A stretch of DNA of 64,000 nt from Fodinibius salipaludis (GTDB lineage Bacteria > Bacteroidota > Rhodothermia > Balneolales > Balneolaceae): NCBI RefSeq assembly GCF_002287075.1, contig NZ_NSKE01000001.1, positions 496,001 to 560,000 on the forward strand, written 5' to 3'. The position numbers were made by a program, and so were the translations under genes. This document shows positions 40,142-54,089 of this stretch, one piece after another; the first letter of the stretch is position 1; the number at the start of each line of letters is the position of its first letter. Below the pieces are notes generated by a model. That model was not told the DNA's origin. It was given only the letters and a program-made list of their open reading frames with translations, and ran no database searches.

Positions 40142-41787
40142 TGGAATTCGTAAACCTATTTCAATCATTTGGCGATCAATTGATCGAGTATTTATGGCTC
40201 CCGGTCATTATCTGGACACTGGTAGCTGCACCCGTCGCATGGGCATTATCCAAATATGAATTGCGCAATGCTATCTACCATTACCACATTCGAACCGCTC
40301 TTCTGCTGGTTCTTCCCCTGGGTCTTTTGGGAACATACCTCACAGACAAAATAAACAGCAGTACAGAATCGGTTGTGGCAGGAATATCCATCATAATACA
40401 AAATCCAATACCAGTTTCAGCCTCAAGCTCTGATCCGTCTATACTAAATGCAATAATGACCCCTCAATTTTTGACCGGTGCTATCAGCCTGATACTTCTT
40501 CTTGGTGCTGTATTACTATTGCTAAAGCTAATGTTTGATTTTGCCCAACTCCGGGCAACAGGGAATAAGCTAAACTTTAGCCCCCTTTCGAATGAAAAAG
40601 AGCTGTTAAACACTCTACCGGGCAGCAGTGACCAATATAAAAATACGCAAATTGCATATTCCGAAGATACTGCTATCCCCTACACCTTCGGTTGGCTAAA
40701 TACCAAAATCGTATTACCAACTGATTTGAAACGGAACCCTGAATCACTTGCTATGGCCGTTCAGCACGAGCTGGTTCATATTAAGAATCACGACTTTTTA
40801 CTTAACAGTTTATTAGTATCAATAAAAAGTCTTTTCTGGTTCCATCCACTGGTTTACTATCTCCATTCATCGCGTGAAGAATACCGCGAAATTTTATGCG
40901 ACAGCCAAGTTTTAGCTACCAATCAGTTTTCAAAGAAAAAATATGCTTCCCTGCTTTTTGAGCTTGCAAAGCGAGATTGCCATCAACGATTAGCTTTATC
41001 TATGGCCGTTAATAAATCGTCATTAAAAAAACGTATCCAAATTATGTCTAACCAAAACCTCACCACTATGAATTTTCGATCCAGCTTTTTAATCACATTA
41101 TTTGCTGCCGCTCTTTTAACTGTCACTATTTCCTGTACGGATATGGCTGACGATAACATTACAAAAAGTGATGTAGAAAAAACACAGGCACAAATGAGTA
41201 ACAATTCTTCTGATAACTTCCCTTTATATGTTATCAACGGAGAAGAGTGGGATAGAACGGAAGAAAACAAAAACAAGTTAACTCGCCTTAAGCCAAAGTA
41301 TATAAAATCTGTTGATGTACTGAAGGGAGAAAAAGCAACAAACAAATATGGTGACAAAGGCAAGAACGGTGTTATTCAAATGAACGTAAATAATCCGGAT
41401 AAAGCCTTTACTGATCTTAAGGATGAGGCTCTATCGCCGCCTCCTCCACCATCAAAGGCAAATGACGGAAATTATTACGTTGCTGTGGAAGACATGCCGG
41501 AATTGGTCGGTGGACTAAGCTCATTACAAAAAATGATCAATTATCCCGAAGAGGCAAGCGAAGCGGGAGCCGAAGGACGTGTAATCGTACAATTCATCAT
41601 TGACAAAGACGGCAATGTTGAAAATCCAACAATCATTAAGGGGGTTCATGAAAGCTTAGATCAAGAGGCATTGCGTGTTGTCAAACAGGCAGATTTTACC
41701 CCCGGCAAAGTTAAAGGCGAACCGGTTCGAGTTCAGTACTCATTACCTATCAGCTTTCAACTTTCAACAGATGATGAGGAATCATAA
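40141..41787 (+). CDS. M56 (BlaR1-like) metallopeptidase with plug-like and TonB C-terminal parts
   Basis: 548 residues. N-terminal half is a BlaR1-type membrane peptidase: hydrophobic helices near 16-35, 50-68, 108-132 and 318-338, and zinc motif HELVH at 209-213 with EYREILCDSQ as the third-ligand region. The extracytoplasmic part has no penicillin-binding domain. Instead it has a short stretch like a TonB-receptor plug (PLYVINGEEWD, IKSVDVLKGEKATNKYGDKGKNGVIQM, about 355-420), then a Pro-rich linker and a TonB C-terminal domain (YPEEASEAGAEGRVIVQFIIDKDGNV, about 460-545). Likely acts on the neighbouring BlaI-like repressor. Confidence 0.9.
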   Translation: MEFVNLFQSFGDQLIEYLWLPVIIWTLVAAPVAWALSKYELRNAIYHYHIRTALLLVLPLGLLGTYLTDKINSSTESVVAGISIIIQNPIPVSASSSDPSILNAIMTPQFLTGAISLILLLGAVLLLLKLMFDFAQLRATGNKLNFSPLSNEKELLNTLPGSSDQYKNTQIAYSEDTAIPYTFGWLNTKIVLPTDLKRNPESLAMAVQHELVHIKNHDFLLNSLLVSIKSLFWFHPLVYYLHSSREEYREILCDSQVLATNQFSKKKYASLLFELAKRDCHQRLALSMAVNKSSLKKRIQIMSNQNLTTMNFRSSFLITLFAAALLTVTISCTDMADDNITKSDVEKTQAQMSNNSSDNFPLYVINGEEWDRTEENKNKLTRLKPKYIKSVDVLKGEKATNKYGDKGKNGVIQMNVNNPDKAFTDLKDEALSPPPPPSKANDGNYYVAVEDMPELVGGLSSLQKMINYPEEASEAGAEGRVIVQFIIDKDGNVENPTIIKGVHESLDQEALRVVKQADFTPGKVKGEPVRVQYSLPISFQLSTDDEES

Positions 41788-45926: not shown

Positions 45927-45985
45927 AAGAATTCAGGAGTCAGAACACAGAAAAACTTCTTCTATATTCTGAGTTCAGAATTCTT
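45927..45985. repeat. Heptamer-built inverted-repeat element, about 59 bases
   Basis: Left arm units AGAATTC-AGGAGTC-AGAACAC-AG; right arm read on the opposite strand AGAATTC-TGAACTC-AGAATAT-AG. The arms pair over about 26 bases with five or six mismatches around a short loop, and AAGAATTC/GAATTCTT is perfect at the tips. The right tip overlaps the stop codon of the FadN-like gene. Compare the elements near 50.8-51.3 and 52.2 kb. Confidence 0.75.
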
Positions 45986-48356
45986 AATTCCTCAGTGGTT
46001 TACCTTTCTTGAGCATGTGCTCTATTCGGGCTTGGGTTCGTTCATCTTCCAAGAGTTCTAAAAAGGCCTCACGTTCAAGACGCAAGATATAATCTTCAGG
46101 CACCTCTTGCGGCTCGCTCAAATCACCACCACTCATTACATAGGCTACCTTCTCAGCCACCACCTTGTCATAATCCGTAATAAAATTTGCCTCCTGCATG
46201 ATATGAAGCATCATCTTCAATGAACTTAACGCCTCATTTCCAAGCACTTTAACCATTGGTTTTTTTGGTGGGTAGTACCCAGCATCTGCCATTTGTTTGG
46301 CCTCTGCTTTGGCATTGGCTATCAGTAGATCCCGATTCATAATGATGGAATCCGAATCGCGCAAATACCCATATTCTCTGGCCTTGGGCGCGCCGTCAGA
46401 CACTTTAGCCATCCCAATCGTCTTAAACTTCTCTTTAATATTCGGCATGGGATCAACTTGTTCATCTTCTAACAAACCTTGCATCGTTCGCAGCAGTACT
46501 TCCTTTGTTCCCCCTCCGGCCGGGAGTAATCCAACGCCCACTTCCACCAAGCCGGCATACAATTCATGATGCGCTACCACCTTATCAGCATGGAGAATAA
46601 ATTCCACTCCGCCGCCAAGTGACCGGCCAAAAGGTGCTACGACTACAGGAAACGGACGATACCGTAATCCCACGGCCACATCCTGGAAATTCTTTGCCGC
46701 TTGCCTGACCTGTTCTTTCTCTCCTTTCTGCCAGGCCCCCATCGCCTCCATCAAGTTGGCACCATAGGTAAAATTATTGCCATCATGACTAATAACCAGT
46801 CCATCAAATTGTTCCTCAACTATATCACAGGCTTTCTTCAGTGATTGGACGAGCTCAAAGCCCAGCGTGTACTGCTTAGTTCGAAATTCAAAAAGTGCAA
46901 TGCCATCACCTAAATCGTACAACCCGGCGCTGTCGTTGCCAAAAACCTCTTTATTATTAGATTTAAGTGTAGCAACCTGAATAGCTCCCTTTGCTGGCGG
47001 ACTCAGCTTCTCAACGTCTCCGGTTGCCAAATTATAGACCGTTCCCTCTTCCTTGTCATAAAAGTGATCTCGTCCGCTGTCGAGCATAGCCAGAACATTG
47101 TGAGGCACATCCAGTCCTTCATCCTGCATACGCTCGACTGATTCCTTAACACCAATAGCATCCCAGCGCTCAAACGGCCCCAATTCCCAGTTGAAGCCCC
47201 ATTTCATAGCGCGGTCAATGGCTTCCACTGAGTCTGTTATTTCAGGAATACGATTAGCTGAATACAGCAGCAAATCGCAGTGTACTTTCCATAAAAACTG
47301 TCCTACTTCGTCATCCTGATTGACTAAAAATTTCAATCGTTCCTCGGAAGTTTTAAACTTTTTCTTAGCCTCGGTTGCGCTTTCAAATTCAGGCTCAATC
47401 TGCGATTCGTATTTCCCCGTTTCGGGATTGATGACTTTATATTCCTTGCCCGAATCGGTGCGCACCTTTTTGTAAAACCCTTCTCCCGCTTTGTTGCCGT
47501 GTTTCCCATCTTCTACCATCTGCTCAAAAGTATCAGGCAGATCGAACACTTTGCGCCGTTCGTCATCTGGAATAGCTGGATACAAATTCGTTGCCACGTG
47601 ATGAATTACATCCAAGCCGGACATATCGGCAGTTCTAAAGGTTGCTGCTTTAGAGTAGCCGGTAAGTGTTCCCAACAGATAATCAATCTCCTCGGCACGG
47701 AAATTCCCGTTAAAAAAGTGCGGCATGATACTGGCCATCGAGAAGATTCCGATGCGATTGGCAATAAAATTGGGCGTATCCTTACACTTCACCACACCCT
47801 TACCCAAATCACGCTCACAAAAACGACTCATATATTCTACGACTTCATCAGCAGTGGATTCGGTGGGAATAAGCTCCAACAGTTTCATATACCGGGGCGG
47901 ATTGAAAAAATGTGTGCCCAGAAAATGCTCTTTAAATTCATCCGAACAATCCTCACTAATATCTCCAATTGGCAAACCGGAGGTATTCGAACTCACGATC
48001 GTCCCCTCAGTTCGAACATCTTCAATTTGAGACATCATATCTTTTTTGATATCCATTTTTTCGATGATGGCCTCGCAAACCCAATCAACTTCCTTGATGA
48101 TATCCAGATCATCGGTAAAATTTCCGGGCTCGATGCGGTCCGCGTATTCCGGCAATCCCAGCGGCGACGGATTCATCTTTTTGAGTTTTTTTATATTATC
48201 TAAAACCGTCTGATTGGGATTCTCACTCTCCTCATCCTTGAGATCAAGGAGCCATACCTGCATTCCGGCATTAACACAATGTGCCGCAATTTGGCTACCC
48301 ATCGTTCCTGATCCAAGTACCGCTACTTTCTGAATATCATATTTGCTTGTGGACAT
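45984..48356 (-). CDS. fadN: 3-hydroxyacyl-CoA dehydrogenase/enoyl-CoA hydratase fusion (FadN-like)
   Basis: 790 residues with the dehydrogenase first. Rossmann VAVLGSGTMGSQIAAHCVNAG at residue 12, the catalytic His in GTHFFNPPRYMKLLELIP, and the second dehydrogenase domain to about residue 430. The hydratase/isomerase part follows (about 470-660): SLGGGVEFILHADKVVAHHELYAGLVEVGVGLLPAGGGT, with both catalytic Glu (GGGVE and LVEVG). The domain order is reversed from E. coli FadB and matches FadN of Bacillus. It makes 3-ketoacyl-CoA from enoyl-CoA. Downstream of the ligase by 83 bases. Confidence 0.95.
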   Translation of the reverse strand: MSTSKYDIQKVAVLGSGTMGSQIAAHCVNAGMQVWLLDLKDEESENPNQTVLDNIKKLKKMNPSPLGLPEYADRIEPGNFTDDLDIIKEVDWVCEAIIEKMDIKKDMMSQIEDVRTEGTIVSSNTSGLPIGDISEDCSDEFKEHFLGTHFFNPPRYMKLLELIPTESTADEVVEYMSRFCERDLGKGVVKCKDTPNFIANRIGIFSMASIMPHFFNGNFRAEEIDYLLGTLTGYSKAATFRTADMSGLDVIHHVATNLYPAIPDDERRKVFDLPDTFEQMVEDGKHGNKAGEGFYKKVRTDSGKEYKVINPETGKYESQIEPEFESATEAKKKFKTSEERLKFLVNQDDEVGQFLWKVHCDLLLYSANRIPEITDSVEAIDRAMKWGFNWELGPFERWDAIGVKESVERMQDEGLDVPHNVLAMLDSGRDHFYDKEEGTVYNLATGDVEKLSPPAKGAIQVATLKSNNKEVFGNDSAGLYDLGDGIALFEFRTKQYTLGFELVQSLKKACDIVEEQFDGLVISHDGNNFTYGANLMEAMGAWQKGEKEQVRQAAKNFQDVAVGLRYRPFPVVVAPFGRSLGGGVEFILHADKVVAHHELYAGLVEVGVGLLPAGGGTKEVLLRTMQGLLEDEQVDPMPNIKEKFKTIGMAKVSDGAPKAREYGYLRDSDSIIMNRDLLIANAKAEAKQMADAGYYPPKKPMVKVLGNEALSSLKMMLHIMQEANFITDYDKVVAEKVAYVMSGGDLSEPQEVPEDYILRLEREAFLELLEDERTQARIEHMLKKGKPLRN

Positions 48357-48439
48357 AAATATCTATGTTCTATGTAATAAGTTATTAATTGCTAAATTAA
48401 CCACGCAAAATCACGAAGGCCCCAAGACACTAAAAGTAT

Positions 48440-50272
48440 TTAATTATTTGCCTTTGGCTCCTCTTCCTGGTAAATCGATTCGATTTCATCTTCATAACGT
48501 TCTTTAACGACCGGGCGTTTAACTTTCAGTGTGGGCGTAAGTTCACCGGATTCGATAGAGAAAGGAGTTTCCAGCAACACAAACTTTTTGACCGTTTCCC
48601 AAGGGGAAAGTTGCTTATTCACTTTATCGACTTCACGCTGTATAAGTCTTTGAACTTCCGGGTCTTCATTTGCAGGATCCGAAACAGACTTACCACGTCC
48701 CTTCAACCACTTTTTGGCATTTCCATAATCCGGTACGATCAAGGCCGAGCAGAATTTTCGCTGATAGCCAATCACCATAGCCTGATCAATAAATCCACTT
48801 TCGCTGAGTAAGTTTTCAATAGTCTGTGGAGCAACATATTTACCGGTAGATAACTTAAATACCGATTTTTTTCGATCAGTAATATACAAGTAATCATCTT
48901 CAAGCTTACCTACATCACCAGTCATAAACCAGCCGTCATCGTTAAATACTTCGTCCGTTTTTTCTGGATTATTATAGTATCCTTCCATTACATTGGGCCC
49001 TTTTGCAAGAATCTCTCCATCATCGGCAATTTTAATATCTACATTCGAAAGCGGTCTCCCGGAACTACCTACACGCATATGATCTTTGTCATTAACGGAC
49101 AACACAGGCGATGTCTCTGTAAGTCCGTATCCCTGCATACAAATGAGTCCCAAGGCATTCATAAATCGGAATAAATTAGGCGAAAGAGCGGCACCACCAC
49201 TTACCATTCCCAACAGGTTGCCTCCGAAAAGTTCACGGATTTTTGAATACACCAGTTTATCCGCAATCTTATGCTTAATGGCATCCAATCCGCTGGGGGG
49301 ATTTTCGGGATCATATTCCTCAGCCCGATTTATAGCCCAGTAATAGAGCTGCTTTTTGAGTCCGCTCATCTCCTGTCCCTTTACCTTAATTCCGGTATGA
49401 ATTTTTTCCAGAAGTCGAGGCACTGTTGCAAAGTAATAGGGTTTTACATATTCAAAGTCATCACGAATTTCATCTACTTCCTCGATATAATAAATAGGAT
49501 ATCCCATACTCAGATACATATAGGTAATCATTCGCTCAAAAACATGCGAAAGCGGCAGATAGGATAGCATCTTTTCATGCTCTCGGACGGTTTCATCAAA
49601 CGGAACACGCTCCAACGATGCCAGCAAGTTCGAAGCAATGTTATTGTGTGTGAGCATTACCCCTTTGGGATCGCCGGTTGTGCCCGATGTATAGATAAGC
49701 GAAGCGAGATCATCCGGCCCTACCTTTGATCGCAATTCTTCAAACAGATCCGGATTCTCTTCATGCTTTTTTGCTCCCATTTCGAGGATGTCATCAAACT
49801 CTTTGAGTTTACCGTGCTTGGAGCCAAATATGGAAATTATAGCTTTAACATTCTCTATCTCTTTAATAATTGGCTTCGTTTCGGCAAAAAGCTCATCATT
49901 AGAAACAATGTGCACTTTTGCCTCAGAGTTCTCCAAAATGTACTTAATCTGCTCTGCCGGCTGCGTAGTATAAATAGGAACGTTTACCGCACTTAATGAA
50001 AGAATTGCCTGATCGCAAATCACCCATTCAGCGCTGTTTTCAGAATGCAGGCTTACTGTATCACCGGCTCGTACACCGAGCTCGTACAACCCAAGGGCAA
50101 AATTACGAACTTTCTCCTGGAACTCCTCCTTACTCGTTTCAACCCATTCTCCATTCCGTTTTGTAGAAATGAATACATCTTTGTCATGCTTTTGTATCCC
50201 CTTTTCAATCTCTGAAACAATAGTAGTCGGATCGTAAGCCATAGCAGTACTATATTTAATTGTTGATGACAA
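48440..50272 (-). CDS. Long-chain fatty-acid--CoA ligase (AMP-forming)
   Basis: 610 residues, normal for bacterial long-chain ligases. Motif A3/P-loop YTSGTTGDPKG near residue 195, A5 GYGLTETSP, A7 GWFMTGDVG, A8 DRKKSVFKLSTGKYVAPQ, consistent with long-chain (FadD/FAA type) members. The final acceptor Lys is probably in GELTPTLKVKRPVV. The first residues before PTTIVSEIEKG are weakly conserved, so the ATG eleven codons later is possible. First gene of the minus-strand beta-oxidation operon. No acyl-CoA dehydrogenase is in it. Confidence 0.93.
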   Translation of the reverse strand: MSSTIKYSTAMAYDPTTIVSEIEKGIQKHDKDVFISTKRNGEWVETSKEEFQEKVRNFALGLYELGVRAGDTVSLHSENSAEWVICDQAILSLSAVNVPIYTTQPAEQIKYILENSEAKVHIVSNDELFAETKPIIKEIENVKAIISIFGSKHGKLKEFDDILEMGAKKHEENPDLFEELRSKVGPDDLASLIYTSGTTGDPKGVMLTHNNIASNLLASLERVPFDETVREHEKMLSYLPLSHVFERMITYMYLSMGYPIYYIEEVDEIRDDFEYVKPYYFATVPRLLEKIHTGIKVKGQEMSGLKKQLYYWAINRAEEYDPENPPSGLDAIKHKIADKLVYSKIRELFGGNLLGMVSGGAALSPNLFRFMNALGLICMQGYGLTETSPVLSVNDKDHMRVGSSGRPLSNVDIKIADDGEILAKGPNVMEGYYNNPEKTDEVFNDDGWFMTGDVGKLEDDYLYITDRKKSVFKLSTGKYVAPQTIENLLSESGFIDQAMVIGYQRKFCSALIVPDYGNAKKWLKGRGKSVSDPANEDPEVQRLIQREVDKVNKQLSPWETVKKFVLLETPFSIESGELTPTLKVKRPVVKERYEDEIESIYQEEEPKANN

Positions 50273-50381
50273 TCTTTACCAATAATTTAAACGATTGCGG
50301 ATGATTTAAAAGTCTATTTAAATTTATCTTCCATTTTGGTAATTAACCTGCATCCACTAATCAATTGTAACAGAATCATTT

Positions 50382-50810
50382 ATGTATATCCAACCTAATA
50401 TTAAAAAACGTGTTGAAAAATTTCTTTCTATTTCAGAAAAAAACATGGGAGATGCTCTTGGCATCGAATTCACTTCCTTCAAATCTGACGAAGTAAAAGC
50501 CACTATGCCCGTCAATAAAAATACCGTACAACCCTTCGGATTACTCCATGGAGGAGCTTCTGTTGCTCTTGCTGAAACCTTGGCATCTGTCGGGGCCTGG
50601 CTCAATATCGAGGAAGAAGGAAAAACAGCAGTGGGTGTTGAGATCAATGCCAATCATGTACGTGCTGCCCGTAAAGGAGAAACGGTGCACGGCGTTTCTA
50701 AACCCATCCACAAAGGACGTCAAACCCAGGTGTGGGAAACCAAAATTTTTAATGAGGATGAGAAGTTGGTTTGTATATCAAGGTGTACGCTGGCTGTGGT
50801 AGATGTTTAG
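50382..50810 (+). CDS. Hotdog-fold thioesterase (PaaI/YdiI-like)
   Basis: 142 residues. The segment VQPFGLLHGGASVALAETLASVGAWLN holds the HGG loop and the catalytic Glu of PaaI/MenI-type enzymes; VGVEINANHVRAARKGETVHGVSKPIHKGRQTQVWE is the rest of the fold. It hydrolyses acyl- or aryl-CoA thioesters. It is divergent from the fatty-acid ligase gene, separated by 109 bases, so fatty-acyl-CoA balance is plausible, but aromatic or quinone-precursor CoA thioesters are equally possible. Confidence 0.92.
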   Translation: MYIQPNIKKRVEKFLSISEKNMGDALGIEFTSFKSDEVKATMPVNKNTVQPFGLLHGGASVALAETLASVGAWLNIEEEGKTAVGVEINANHVRAARKGETVHGVSKPIHKGRQTQVWETKIFNEDEKLVCISRCTLAVVDV

Positions 50811-50813
50811 TTG

Positions 50814-50834
50814 TGAGTATTGAGATATGAGACT
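50814..50834 (+). repeat. Left heptamer array of an inverted pair around the S23-like gene
   Basis: Three consecutive 7-base units, TGAGTAT, TGAGATA and TGAGACT, begin just after the thioesterase stop. GTGAGTATTGAGAT (50813-50826) is exactly inverted at 51299-51312. Confidence 0.8.
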
Positions 50835-50924
50835 TCAGTGCAATTTCTTATAAAATAATCTGTAAGGATAGTCTGACTATTCGGTCATACTAACAAGCTA
50901 AATAGTAATTAAAAAACTTCTATT

Positions 50925-51281
50925 ATGCACCGATACAAAAAGTTAGATATCTGGAAACGATCAATCTCCTTAGCAACTGATATTTATGAGGTAACTACAA
51001 ACTTTCCGGCTGAAGAAAAATATGGATTAGTATCTCAACTACGAAGATGTGTTGTATCAATTGGATCAAATATTGCTGAAGGAGCAGGACGAAATACTAA
51101 TAAGGATTTCAAACGCTTCTTAAGTATTGCATACGCATCTTCCTGTGAATTAGAAACGCAACTGATCATTGCAAAAAATTTAGATATACTGCCTTCCAAA
51201 GCTGGCAAAATCCTATTGAGTGAGATTAATCAACTTCAAAAGATGATTTTCACTTTCTCCAAGAAATTAACTCCTGCATAG
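50925..51281 (+). CDS. Four-helix-bundle protein (S23/IVS family), free-standing
   Basis: 118 residues. It has the family pattern KLDIWKRSISLATDIYEVTTNFPAEEKYGLVSQLRR, then CVVSIGSNIAEGAGRNTNKDFKRFLSIAYASSCELETQL, in four helices (TIGR02436/Pfam 23S_rRNA_IVP). Related ORFs lie in intervening sequences of 23S rRNA and as free genes in many Bacteroidota, where the function is unknown; structural relatives are accessory proteins of diversity-generating retroelements. No rRNA or reverse transcriptase is here. The gene is bracketed by inverted heptamer arrays, which is striking. Confidence 0.93.
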   Translation: MHRYKKLDIWKRSISLATDIYEVTTNFPAEEKYGLVSQLRRCVVSIGSNIAEGAGRNTNKDFKRFLSIAYASSCELETQLIIAKNLDILPSKAGKILLSEINQLQKMIFTFSKKLTPA

Positions 51282-51297
51282 AAAAATACTACCAAAC

Positions 51298-51332
51298 AAT
51301 CTCAATACTCACTACTCAAGACTCATCACCCA
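51298..51332 (-). repeat. Right heptamer array of the inverted pair
   Basis: On the plus strand, NNNCTCA units: AATCTCA, ATACTCA, CTACTCA, AGACTCA, then a decayed TCACCCA. On the opposite strand this is TGAGTNN repeated four times, the same unit as the left array. It ends 8 bases before the stop codon of the next, minus-strand gene. Confidence 0.8.
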
Positions 51333-51340
51333 ATACTACT

Positions 51341-52057
51341 CTACTCATACAGCTGCTGCAATAATTTTCGTTTGGTAACCGGAAAAATCGTCTCCCGAAA
51401 TGGGAAATCCAGATCAGTGTTAAACGCAAAAGTTGCCGGGTTAGGTAAGTCCTTATTTTCATCGATGAGATTAAGTTTAATAGCATTTGGAGACCGATAA
51501 GCTCCGTCCTGCTCTAATCCTTTCAGAAAAGCCGTTTTCAGTGATCGATATCTATCCTGTGAACTTTCAAAAACAGTGAGCTCATACTGGAAAAGTAACA
51601 ATTTCGATTCCTCGTTATCAGGCACAAAAAAATATCCCTCATCCGTATAATTAGGAATAATACCGACTTCTTCGAGCTTGATTTCATCGTTCACAAATTC
51701 ATAAATCGTTTTACCCTCTTCGATTTTTGCTTTAATCAATGGTAATCCCCACTCAATTAGATCTTCAACTTTTGACAGATCGGATCCATCTACAAAAACA
51801 ACTTCGTGCTCAATAACTTCATTTACAAAATCGATCTTTTTGATCCGTTTGGGAAACTCATCCCGCAAATCCCGAAGTCGACTTAATATATCATCCAGGG
51901 TTGTATAAAGCTCTACCAGATGACTTAAGTGCGGATAAATCTTGTTCATCTGAAAATCATCAGAAATCGATTTGAGTCCCGCCAATATTTTGTACTGCTG
52001 AGATTCAAAATCAGATTGAAGGTGTGTAAAAAGATCAAGATCGAGTGAATGAGCCAT
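51341..52057 (-). CDS. Hypothetical cytoplasmic protein, helical N-terminus
   Basis: 238 residues, unrecognised. No signal peptide or transmembrane helix. The first 75 residues are strongly helical with a coiled-coil look (LVELYTTLDDILSRLRDLRDEF). The middle is acidic alpha/beta, with a repeated I-E-E/V-E-V-G pattern; residues 195-235 end in NPATFAFNTDLDFPFRETIFPVTKRK. It could be a structural or partner protein. It has its own start 239 bases upstream of the AMP ligase stop, and lies between two heptamer repeat elements. Confidence 0.7.
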   Translation of the reverse strand: MAHSLDLDLFTHLQSDFESQQYKILAGLKSISDDFQMNKIYPHLSHLVELYTTLDDILSRLRDLRDEFPKRIKKIDFVNEVIEHEVVFVDGSDLSKVEDLIEWGLPLIKAKIEEGKTIYEFVNDEIKLEEVGIIPNYTDEGYFFVPDNEESKLLLFQYELTVFESSQDRYRSLKTAFLKGLEQDGAYRSPNAIKLNLIDENKDLPNPATFAFNTDLDFPFRETIFPVTKRKLLQQLYE

Positions 52058-52154
52058 AGTGACCTCCTGCCTTTGTACCGTAGTGAAGATGATATCCTTT
52101 TTTCAACTTTAATTAATAACGAAGAGAGGAGCAAGTTTTATTGTTTAAACGGTG

Positions 52155-52294
52155 GCCAGGAGCTTGGGGCATCGGGCAGAGAGTAAAATCCTGGAATCGA
52201 AATTGACTCATAGCTTTCCTCTCTCTTAATTTAAATTTTAGAATATATTTATCGGTCACCCACACTCCACTCTCTATGCACCGTACCCCATGCC
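52155..52294. repeat. Second bracketed heptamer inverted-repeat element, no gene inside
   Basis: Left arm (52159-52184) reads GGAGCTT-GGGGCAT-CGGGCAG-AGAGT. The right arm (52269-52294), read on the opposite strand, gives GGCATGG-GGTACGG-TGCATAG-AGAGT. AGAGAGT/ACTCTCT is a perfect 7-bp match and TGGGG is shared, with gaps. About 85 bases of ordinary AT-rich sequence lie between. It falls between the hypothetical gene and the ligase stop. Confidence 0.55.
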
Positions 52295-52295
52295 A

Positions 52296-53951
52296 TTATT
52301 CATCCCGAAACTGCACATCTTTCCACTGCTCGAAATGATGCGTTACTTTTCGTCGCTGATACTTTCCTGTAGAGGTCACCGGAATCTGATCCCCAAAAAC
52401 AACAACCTTCGGGGACTTCGAAAATGGCAAATACTCTCTGCAATACTCCAGAATAGCTTCCTCATCTTCCTCTGCGCCTTCTTTAAGTTGGACATAGGCG
52501 CCCACCTCTTCCCCATACCAATCATTTTCAAATCCGACGGCTATACCGGCTTGAACACCCGGCGCCTTATTAATCACCTCATCAATTTCGAGGGGGGCCA
52601 GATTTACTCCCCCCCGGATAATCAGTTCCTTTAACCGGCCGGTAATAAAAAAATACGGACGCCCTTCCTCATCATTAACATAGAATCCCTCATCTCCACT
52701 GCGAAACCAACCGTGTTTAAACGTCTTTTCGTTTGCTTCCCGGTTGTTATAATACTTCAACATCACATTTACCCCGCGGATTACAATTTCGCCGCGCTCC
52801 TCTTCTTCCAGCTCGTTACCATCTTCGTCGTGGATCGCCATCTCATTTGCCGGAATAGGTACCCCAATACTGGGATAGCCGTAATCAGCAATCCACTTTT
52901 TGTGTTCTTCTTCGTCCAGATCGACAGGAAGAAAACATGAGTAGCAGGTCGTCTCCGAAAGTCCGTAACCATGGATGATTGGGATATCAAAGCGCTCTTC
53001 AAAGGTCGTTGCCACTTTGACGGTTAACGGCCCTGCCCCACAAATTATGTGCTTTAAGGTTGAGGTATCAGACGTCTCTTTTTCTGAATAATAATTATTG
53101 AGATACTGCAGTAACGTAGGCACAACACTAACGATGTGAACCCCCTCTTCTTTAATAATGGGGAAAAAGCGACTGGTTCTAAACTTTTGATTGAGCACCG
53201 TGGATCCGCCCGCAAAAAATGGGGTCATCAAAGTAACTACGGTCCCATTGACATGATGGATGGGGAGCACGCACATCATTCGCGTTTGATTATCGATATT
53301 ATGCCAATCAGCAATGCTCCGGGCATCTTCAAGTAAATTACGCTGACTTAGTGCTACTCCTTTGGGGGCACCTGTGGTGCCTGATGTAAAGACAATCAGG
53401 GCTTCTGAATCATCCAATACATCATCAGGGAGTTCAAGATCTCCCTTTTCATGAGTGAAATTTTCAATCTCTCCTTCACAAACAATCCACTCCACATTTT
53501 TCAAATACTTGTGGGATTCCAGAATCCCCCGAAATCGCTCCCGGTATTCGGTACGTACGAACGCCAGTTCCACTTCCCCGTTCTCCAAGATGTAGGCAAT
53601 ACGCTCATCATCTTCCCCCAAATTGATTGGCACAACCACTAATCCCAAGAGCCAGGCTGCAAAATATTGCACAACGGTATGCCAGTGATTATATGAGATC
53701 GTAGCAATACGATCACCGTGACTTAGTCCATGGTTCTGCATTAACCGCGCGCAGTTTATTACATGCTGATAAAATACGGTATAACTAACCTCGGTCCGGT
53801 TCTCATTTTCATCAATGTAGGTCAAATAATTACCTTTATTATCCGAGCGTTGTTGTAACAACTCTGGGATATCATTAACAGGCAAAGGAGGTAACTGTTC
53901 AGAAGTATTTCGCGCGTATTCAATTTTTTGCCGAAGTTCTTTAAAATCCAT
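52296..53951 (-). CDS. AMP-dependent acyl-CoA synthetase/ligase
   Basis: About 551 residues from the ATG at 53951, which begins MDFKELRQKIEYARN; an ATG at 53987 would add 12 poorly conserved residues. Class I adenylate-forming enzyme: A3 FTSGTTGAPKG, A5 GYGLSETTC, A7 GWFRSGDEG, A8 TGRLKELIIRGGVNLAPLEID, and the A10 lysine in STGKYQRRKV. Substrate uncertain: HHVNG and IHGYGLSETT resemble medium-chain or aryl/long-chain ligases. Monocistronic, minus strand, divergent from the isoaspartate methyltransferase. Confidence 0.9.
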   Translation of the reverse strand: MDFKELRQKIEYARNTSEQLPPLPVNDIPELLQQRSDNKGNYLTYIDENENRTEVSYTVFYQHVINCARLMQNHGLSHGDRIATISYNHWHTVVQYFAAWLLGLVVVPINLGEDDERIAYILENGEVELAFVRTEYRERFRGILESHKYLKNVEWIVCEGEIENFTHEKGDLELPDDVLDDSEALIVFTSGTTGAPKGVALSQRNLLEDARSIADWHNIDNQTRMMCVLPIHHVNGTVVTLMTPFFAGGSTVLNQKFRTSRFFPIIKEEGVHIVSVVPTLLQYLNNYYSEKETSDTSTLKHIICGAGPLTVKVATTFEERFDIPIIHGYGLSETTCYSCFLPVDLDEEEHKKWIADYGYPSIGVPIPANEMAIHDEDGNELEEEERGEIVIRGVNVMLKYYNNREANEKTFKHGWFRSGDEGFYVNDEEGRPYFFITGRLKELIIRGGVNLAPLEIDEVINKAPGVQAGIAVGFENDWYGEEVGAYVQLKEGAEEDEEAILEYCREYLPFSKSPKVVVFGDQIPVTSTGKYQRRKVTHHFEQWKDVQFRDE

Positions 53952-54089
53952 AAAGCACCTATTTATTCCCCATTGATCTGTGTTCAATTTTAGGTTTTGA
54001 AGGGCGGAAAGGCAAATGACTTCCCTATTTTGAACGAACTGTTGTAGAAACTATGTTTTTAAAATACACACGAAAGAATATCATTTTTC

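Follow-up and report, generated by a model that had tools for sequence, protein, structure and literature searches.

An S23-family gene between inverted heptad arrays in Fodinibius salipaludis: a probable free-standing relative of 23S rRNA intervening sequences

In REP/REPIN systems, one lineage of RAYT transposase is accompanied by its own cognate short hairpin repeats between genes. The STRR of cyanobacteria are heptamer repeats. Heptamer repeats have also been reported for P6b stems of the trnL intron, whose class II motif is NNTGAGT (PMC4476775), for Xanthomonas (GGGAATC; PMC4692102), and for Beggiatoaceae (TAACTGA; PMC4679880); their origin is an open question (PMC4692102). The 23S rRNA intervening sequence (IVS) carries an S23 open reading frame (ORF) between terminal inverted repeats, and in Coxiella burnetii tandem heptameric repeats precede this ORF in numbers that vary between strains; the function of S23 is likewise an open question (PMC4990558). 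Our search of the open-access literature found no link between S23 and heptads beyond that report.

The window analyzed here is a 64,000-nt stretch of the genome of F. salipaludis (3,583,276 bases in 39 contigs, with 12 copies of S23). An initial annotation had placed an S23-like gene between inverted TGAGNNN arrays in this window, with a 14-base stretch exactly inverted at both ends. Both features were confirmed (Table 1), the exact complementarity within the arms extending over 50813–50826 and 51299–51312. The pattern TGAGNNNTGAGNNNTGAG matched three times in the window, always at the S23 locus. In the predicted RNA fold of 50800–51345 (MFE −110.2 kcal/mol, z −2.53), the arms were paired in the stem that had been proposed to enclose the ORF. 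The earlier statement that there is no rRNA at this locus also held, since an Rfam search of 50300–51500 at E up to 1 gave no family. Another lag-7 stretch in the window, at 41733–41768, was set aside as the apparent end of a coding region.

Table 1. Features of the S23 locus and its immediate neighbours (window positions).
Feature	Position	Strand	Basis
Left neighbour, a hotdog thioesterase gene that forms one wall of a conserved slot	50382–50810	+	Pfam/NCBIfam
Left arm of inverted pair (partner 51299–51319)	50806–50826	+	21 nt, 90% complementary; RNA-fold pairing
Left array, three TGAGNNN units (TGAGTAT-TGAGATA-TGAGACT)	50814–50834	+	Read from sequence; pattern count
Promoter-like motif TGTAAGG-N17-TCNTAY, after the left arm and ahead of the gene	50861–50890	+	Pattern match; common to S23 loci of relatives
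Gene for S23-family four-helix-bundle protein, 118 aa	50925–51281	+	PF05635, TIGR02436, predicted fold
Right arm of inverted pair (partner 50806–50826)	51299–51319	−	Inverted-repeat search
Right array, minus-strand TGAGNNN (CTCA-type), four exact units and one degenerate	51301–51332	−	Read from sequence; pattern count
Gene for 238-aa protein, right neighbour, other wall of the slot	51341–52057	−	No Pfam or NCBIfam match

The window locus resembles the 23S rRNA IVS in that its S23 ORF lies between terminal inverted repeats (PMC4990558), and its complementary ends pair in the predicted fold. Unlike the IVS, it lies outside any rRNA gene and has its own promoter-like motif, and its genome holds many S23 copies with differing units as well as gene-less hairpins elsewhere. 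The remaining 11 S23 copies of the window genome lacked TGAG heptads and carried their own arms with other units. The unit TGAGNNN resembles the class II motif of the P6b stems (PMC4476775).

The window ORF encodes an S23 protein. It matched PF05635 (E 5.3e-39, 133.2 bits against a cut-off of 33.8) and TIGR02436 (E 1.5e-36, 124.9 bits against 24). Its predicted structure (pLDDT 96.2) was closest in a fold search to 2gsc (TM 0.88–0.95) and 2rld (TM 0.77–0.83), both five-chain entries, and the next relative was Avd of diversity-generating retroelement ribonucleoproteins (4dwl, 8ub7; TM 0.74–0.78). Avd has a fold in common with the S23 model and, from the titles of these entries, works in a ribonucleoprotein, but the bAvd profile gave the window protein only 26.5 bits, below its cut-off of 40. 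At E up to 0.001 the only Pfam matches were 23S_rRNA_IVP and bAvd, with no transposase domain among them. Five residues were invariant in S23 (Q38, S45, N49, E52, E75); to our knowledge they form no known active site, and we know of no catalytic motif for S23.

The motif TGTAAGG-N17-TCNTAY precedes many S23 genes with fixed spacing (the window locus, L002, L005, L039, L048, L135, and others). It was found in 29 of 161 S23 loci, several of which are copies of one place, and a slightly looser pattern matched once in the window against 0.08 matches expected. In some loci the motif sits inside the left array and in others outside it. It may be a dedicated promoter. A reading as a covarying hairpin was rejected by eye, because the left half is constant while the right half varies.

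To score arrays, short-lag self-matches were counted in 250 nt on each side of S23 genes against a 99% null. The first set comprised 92 loci, namely the 12 of the window genome and the best 80 of 86 relatives. In this set the null was exceeded by 51 flanks upstream of S23 and 48 downstream of it (99 of 184 flanks), and of the 32 loci positive on both sides, 31 had one and the same period. As a control, flanks of other genes lying more than 300 nt from S23 in these loci passed the cut in 17 of 148 and 20 of 165 cases (37 of 313 together; Fisher 1e-23), and some of these were gene-less arrays. The upstream flank compared with the reversed downstream flank beat all 20 shuffles in 74 of the 92 loci, and the direct comparison did so in 11. 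An inverted-flank score of 14 was reached by 57 of 92 true pairs versus 10 of 453 mismatched loci.

These counts bear on chance or composition as an alternative, namely that AT-rich simple-sequence spacers happen to flank the gene. The window arrays are short, and the general periodicity score of the locus (combined 20) is just below the cut, which requires more than 21, as chance would allow. However, the locus passed the inverted-flank test (16 versus 12.5), the three pattern matches in the window compare with 0.01 expected from 100 shuffles, inverted flanks are far above direct ones, and lag 7 rises above lags 4, 5, 10, 11, and 13 in a set that includes five misoriented loci and several broken frames. 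Shuffles and the comparison with other lags refute this reading, and we regard it as having almost no chance of being right.

A wider set of 170 distinct S23 loci remained from 180 after removal of one that was not located and nine that were near-identical. Arrays were detected in 103 loci, inverted flanks in 103, direct ones in 11, and arrays or inversion in 127; neither was found in 43. The period of the array-bearing loci was 7 in 72, 8 in 21, 6 in 6, and another value in 4, and where both flanks were separately significant (46 loci) it was equal in 43. Array length was most often four or five units, the cut removing shorter arrays. Array-bearing loci carried 12 NCBI phylum names, although single labels may be wrong because many of the records are metagenome bins. 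We place the window element in this widespread class, where every S23 lineage would have a cognate unit, mostly of 7 nt and in some lineages of 8 or 6. Units of 6 nt (AACGAA-like) were seen in S23 loci of Prevotellaceae and other Bacteroidetes (L062, L064, L069, L085), and units of 8 nt in the Phycisphaerae loci L112 and L113 and also in L093.

A further set consisted of 22 of 31 plasmid records with S23, 19 of the 22 being cyanobacterial. With the same cuts it gave arrays in 18 loci, inverted flanks in 14, and direct ones in 5; a few of these loci are near-copies of one another. Their units were heptads such as GGGAACA and AGTAGGG, and S23 genes on cyanobacterial plasmids carry heptads like the cyanobacterial heptamers. 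In three loci on cyanobacterial plasmids S23 lies inside a CRISPR-Cas operon, between cas6 and cas4 (L301, L307) or between cas10/cmr2 and a cmr3-family gene (L308). None of 50,697 phage records contained S23; viral contigs held 11 S23 loci, several near-identical, of which 5 had arrays. In the Bacteroidota locus L199, positions 1009–1086 matched the SAM_alpha riboswitch just above the cut-off (37.6 versus 36 bits).

The arms of the window locus pair in the predicted fold, and we considered a long, specific stem as a general rule. When the order of units was shuffled, arm complementarity was significant (p ≤ 0.05) in only 14 of 121 loci, with a median p of 0.25. This is a modest excess, and a long specific stem is therefore not general. 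Conservation seems to lie in how the unit is read more than in the perfection of the stem.

Twenty array-poor S23 loci were scanned with Rfam for rRNA context, and only one of them, L117, lies in a 23S rRNA gene. Its S23 gene is decayed, and direct reading revealed heptads of the ACTAGAA type upstream of the gene and, downstream, their inverse; the automatic score (20) had missed them because the reading frame is broken. We take the insertion site to be helix 45 of 23S rRNA. Helix 45 is a known IVS site (PMC4990558). The likeness to S23-bearing IVSs drawn by the initial annotation is real, and inverted heptads are found inside a 23S gene as well as outside. We conclude that the window element is probably a free-standing relative of the S23-bearing 23S rRNA IVS.

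The relation between unit and protein was examined in 124 loci of the bacterial family of the window genome, 85 of them with usable arms. Pairs were taken from different genomes and from places without shared neighbours, although some may share an old site, because neighbours were compared only within about 0.9–1.5 kb. Arm similarity was 0.456 for S23 pairs of at least 0.6 identity and 0.348, 0.260, 0.245, and 0.239 for identities of 0.5–0.6, 0.4–0.5, 0.3–0.4, and 0.2–0.3; for S23 pairs of the same genome it was 0.254 (n = 115). The Mantel correlation of arm similarity with S23 identity was 0.36, a value reached in none of 999 permutations. On the S23 tree, which is short of columns, the period changed 14 times, compared with a mean of 24.9 and a minimum of 20 in 500 shuffles. 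In this family the unit goes with the S23 lineage, whatever the genome or position, and not with the host genome.

We next compared array content between genomes. PF05635 was present in 47 of 58 genomes of the family and in 157 of 198 in a phylum sample. Of the 47 family genomes with S23, 41 contained the pattern (TGAGNNN)x3-TGAG, versus none of the 11 without S23 (p 5e-8); by genus it was 14 of 16 versus 0 of 5 (p 0.001). The S23-free genomes are all small (1.5–2.8 Mb) and belong to five genera; among genomes of 2.2–2.8 Mb only, TGAG arrays were present in 6 of 6 with S23 versus 0 of 4 without. A backward-read control of the pattern search was unfair here, because arrays of TGAGTNN match the backward pattern too. 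TCAGC heptad arrays were found in 21 of the 47 genomes with S23 versus none of the 11 without, and in 9 of 11 genomes with TCAGC-type S23 versus 12 of 36 other S23 genomes (p 0.006). A unit-blind search for lag-7 arrays gave 18 in 380,000 nt of S23 genomes (7 of 19 random stretches) versus none in 237,808 nt of S23-free genomes (15 random stretches), while lags other than 7 gave 0 to 3 arrays in either group. In other families the contrast was weak, with 5 and 1 lag-7 arrays, respectively, in 160,000 nt each. Array content within one family depends on the presence of S23.

Arrays might instead come from slippage or from another factor, with S23 settling or surviving between them as a passive guest, much as an IVS does in rRNA hairpin loops. 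Such an origin would fit the S23-less arrays common in S23 genomes, the fast change of copy number between orthologues, and the slippage to which heptamers elsewhere have been ascribed (PMC4679880). However, the unit tracks S23 lineage and not genome, and S23-free genomes of the family lack arrays, including those in the narrow size range. We consider passive settlement decidedly unlikely.

TGAG arrays occurred at 12 other places of the window genome without S23 (clustered from 26 overlapping matches). These gene-less arrays are intergenic, and a strict opposite pair within 400 nt was found at only 3 of the 12; one inverted pair without S23 lies at C3:75476–75691. The suggested tie of TGAGNNN arrays to S23 is partly contradicted for this particular unit by the gene-less places and the 11 other S23 copies with other units, but it holds in a general form: S23 genes as a class carry inverted arrays, and the unit follows the S23 lineage. 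A TGAG hairpin at C1:573030–573115 occupies a slot between another thioesterase gene and a thiolase gene; in nine relatives S23 is found there. Two histories would fit, loss of the gene from within its arms or entry of a gene into a hairpin.

The window slot, between the thioesterase and 238-aa protein genes, was compared in 12 genomes of the genus. S23 was present in 4 (one with stops), absent from 7, and unjudgeable in 1. Gap lengths of the S23-less versions varied too strongly to give a clear junction at which a target-site duplication could be read, and one gap of 157 nt retained arm-like ends and the promoter-like motif. Arm units at this slot differed between orthologues and matched within each. 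In 2 of the 4 holders the gene was in the opposite orientation (L154 and L158 versus L149 and L156), which is expected if recombination between inverted arms flips the loop. For the window site, these comparisons suggest an old S23 gene that was passed on vertically, lost in some genomes and turned round in others. The initial annotation had suggested that the locus may be a small mobile or domesticated RNA element; arms and gene do belong together, but the inheritance here looks vertical.

Family S23 genes were often found beside beta-oxidation genes: thiolase (21 loci in 18 genomes), thioesterase (12 loci), and enoyl-CoA hydratase (13 loci), for example at 45984–53987 of the window and in L120, L129, and L133. 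A partner gene beside S23 was considered and rejected, since these recurrent neighbours lie in long-conserved slots and are read as shared site ancestry, not partnership.

We propose that gene and arms form one genetic unit, a hairpin with S23 in its loop; the arms are inverted arrays, and their short unit, TGAGNNN at this locus, is rich in G. The five-chain structures 2gsc and 2rld, together with arrays mostly of four or five units, led us to propose that S23 forms a pentameric ring in which each subunit would recognize one unit of the array. The most likely target would be the strand rich in G, in the form of either RNA or single-stranded DNA. Such reading of the unit could link an S23 protein with the arms around its gene and with hairpin copies elsewhere in the genome that lack the gene. 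These copies may be remnants, or they may be non-autonomous and stand to S23 as REP sequences stand to RAYT. That the S23 ring recognizes its repeat, and that gene-less hairpins were left or spread by it, is the most likely explanation, with both recognition and movement inferred.

If nothing moves, S23 could act after transcription as a TRAP-like regulator whose ring binds the spaced units in its own leader for autoregulation and in a regulon of array-bearing mRNAs. Of 85 family loci, 83 have an upstream array that is rich in G on the coding strand (the bias is weaker over all phyla, with 86 G-rich and 14 C-rich of 103), the units are regularly spaced, the gene-less arrays are intergenic, the gene has long been kept in the same slot, and a promoter-like motif lies ahead of it, all of which suit such a regulator. 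Regulation alone, however, does not account for the inverted array behind the gene, for S23 within rRNA, or for the presence in a single genome of several unrelated S23 lineages whose units differ. At some loci, moreover, the array precedes the promoter-like motif, and transcripts starting from that motif would not include it. We consider this regulator improbable as a full account.

For the ring-reader proposal we counted the anatomy, its recurrence, the match of unit and lineage, the dependence of arrays on S23, the slot with either a gene or a bare hairpin, the G-rich polarity of the arms in the family, the five-chain structures with Avd as next relative, and the usual array length of four or five units. 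Counted against it were the 12 gene-less TGAG places, the TCAGC arrays in 12 of 36 genomes without TCAGC-type S23, the 43 of 170 loci with neither arrays nor inversion, the modest complementarity beyond the unit, and the weaker polarity over all phyla. Also on this side were the small S23-free genomes from five genera, the weak contrast in other families, the vertical inheritance at the window site with no copying event caught in the data, and the lack of a known catalytic motif. That gene and arms are one evolutionary unit is highly probable. For the whole statement, which adds the lineage-cognate class and the ring-recognition mechanism, we see an even chance.

Compared with REP/RAYT, the S23 loci also pair a protein lineage with a repeat type, although more weakly for TCAGC arrays. 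The RAYT partner, however, is a Y1 tyrosine transposase, whereas S23 is a four-helix bundle without a transposase match in Pfam, and the S23-linked repeat is an array of 7-nt units. Known heptamer repeats share with S23 arrays the 7-nt tandem unit, often in hairpins or inverted pairs, but none of the P6b, GGGAATC, and TAACTGA repeats is tied to S23 in the available text of the reports (PMC4476775, PMC4692102, PMC4679880). We conclude that the S23 arrangement is real and general, and is not described as a system within the literature searched; the lineage-matched repeat and the dependence of arrays on S23 are its new elements.

More broadly, and only tentatively, S23 proteins could be ring-shaped, unit-specific readers that make and keep hairpin arrays of 6-, 7-, and 8-nt units. 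The protein would set the unit length, and protein and repeat would co-evolve, selfish or domesticated, without a transposase. This might be the system behind the heptamers of cyanobacteria and Bacteroidota, the trnL P6b stems, and the 23S IVS, but we would sooner expect this wide reading to fail than to hold. The match of S23 lineage and unit joins two open questions, the function of S23 and the origin of heptamer repeats, and S23 with its repeat may account for how some of these repeats arose in bacteria. If true, this would be a partnership of protein and repeat of the REP/RAYT type without a transposase, present in many phyla, and the rRNA intervening sequence would be one special landing site of a general element.
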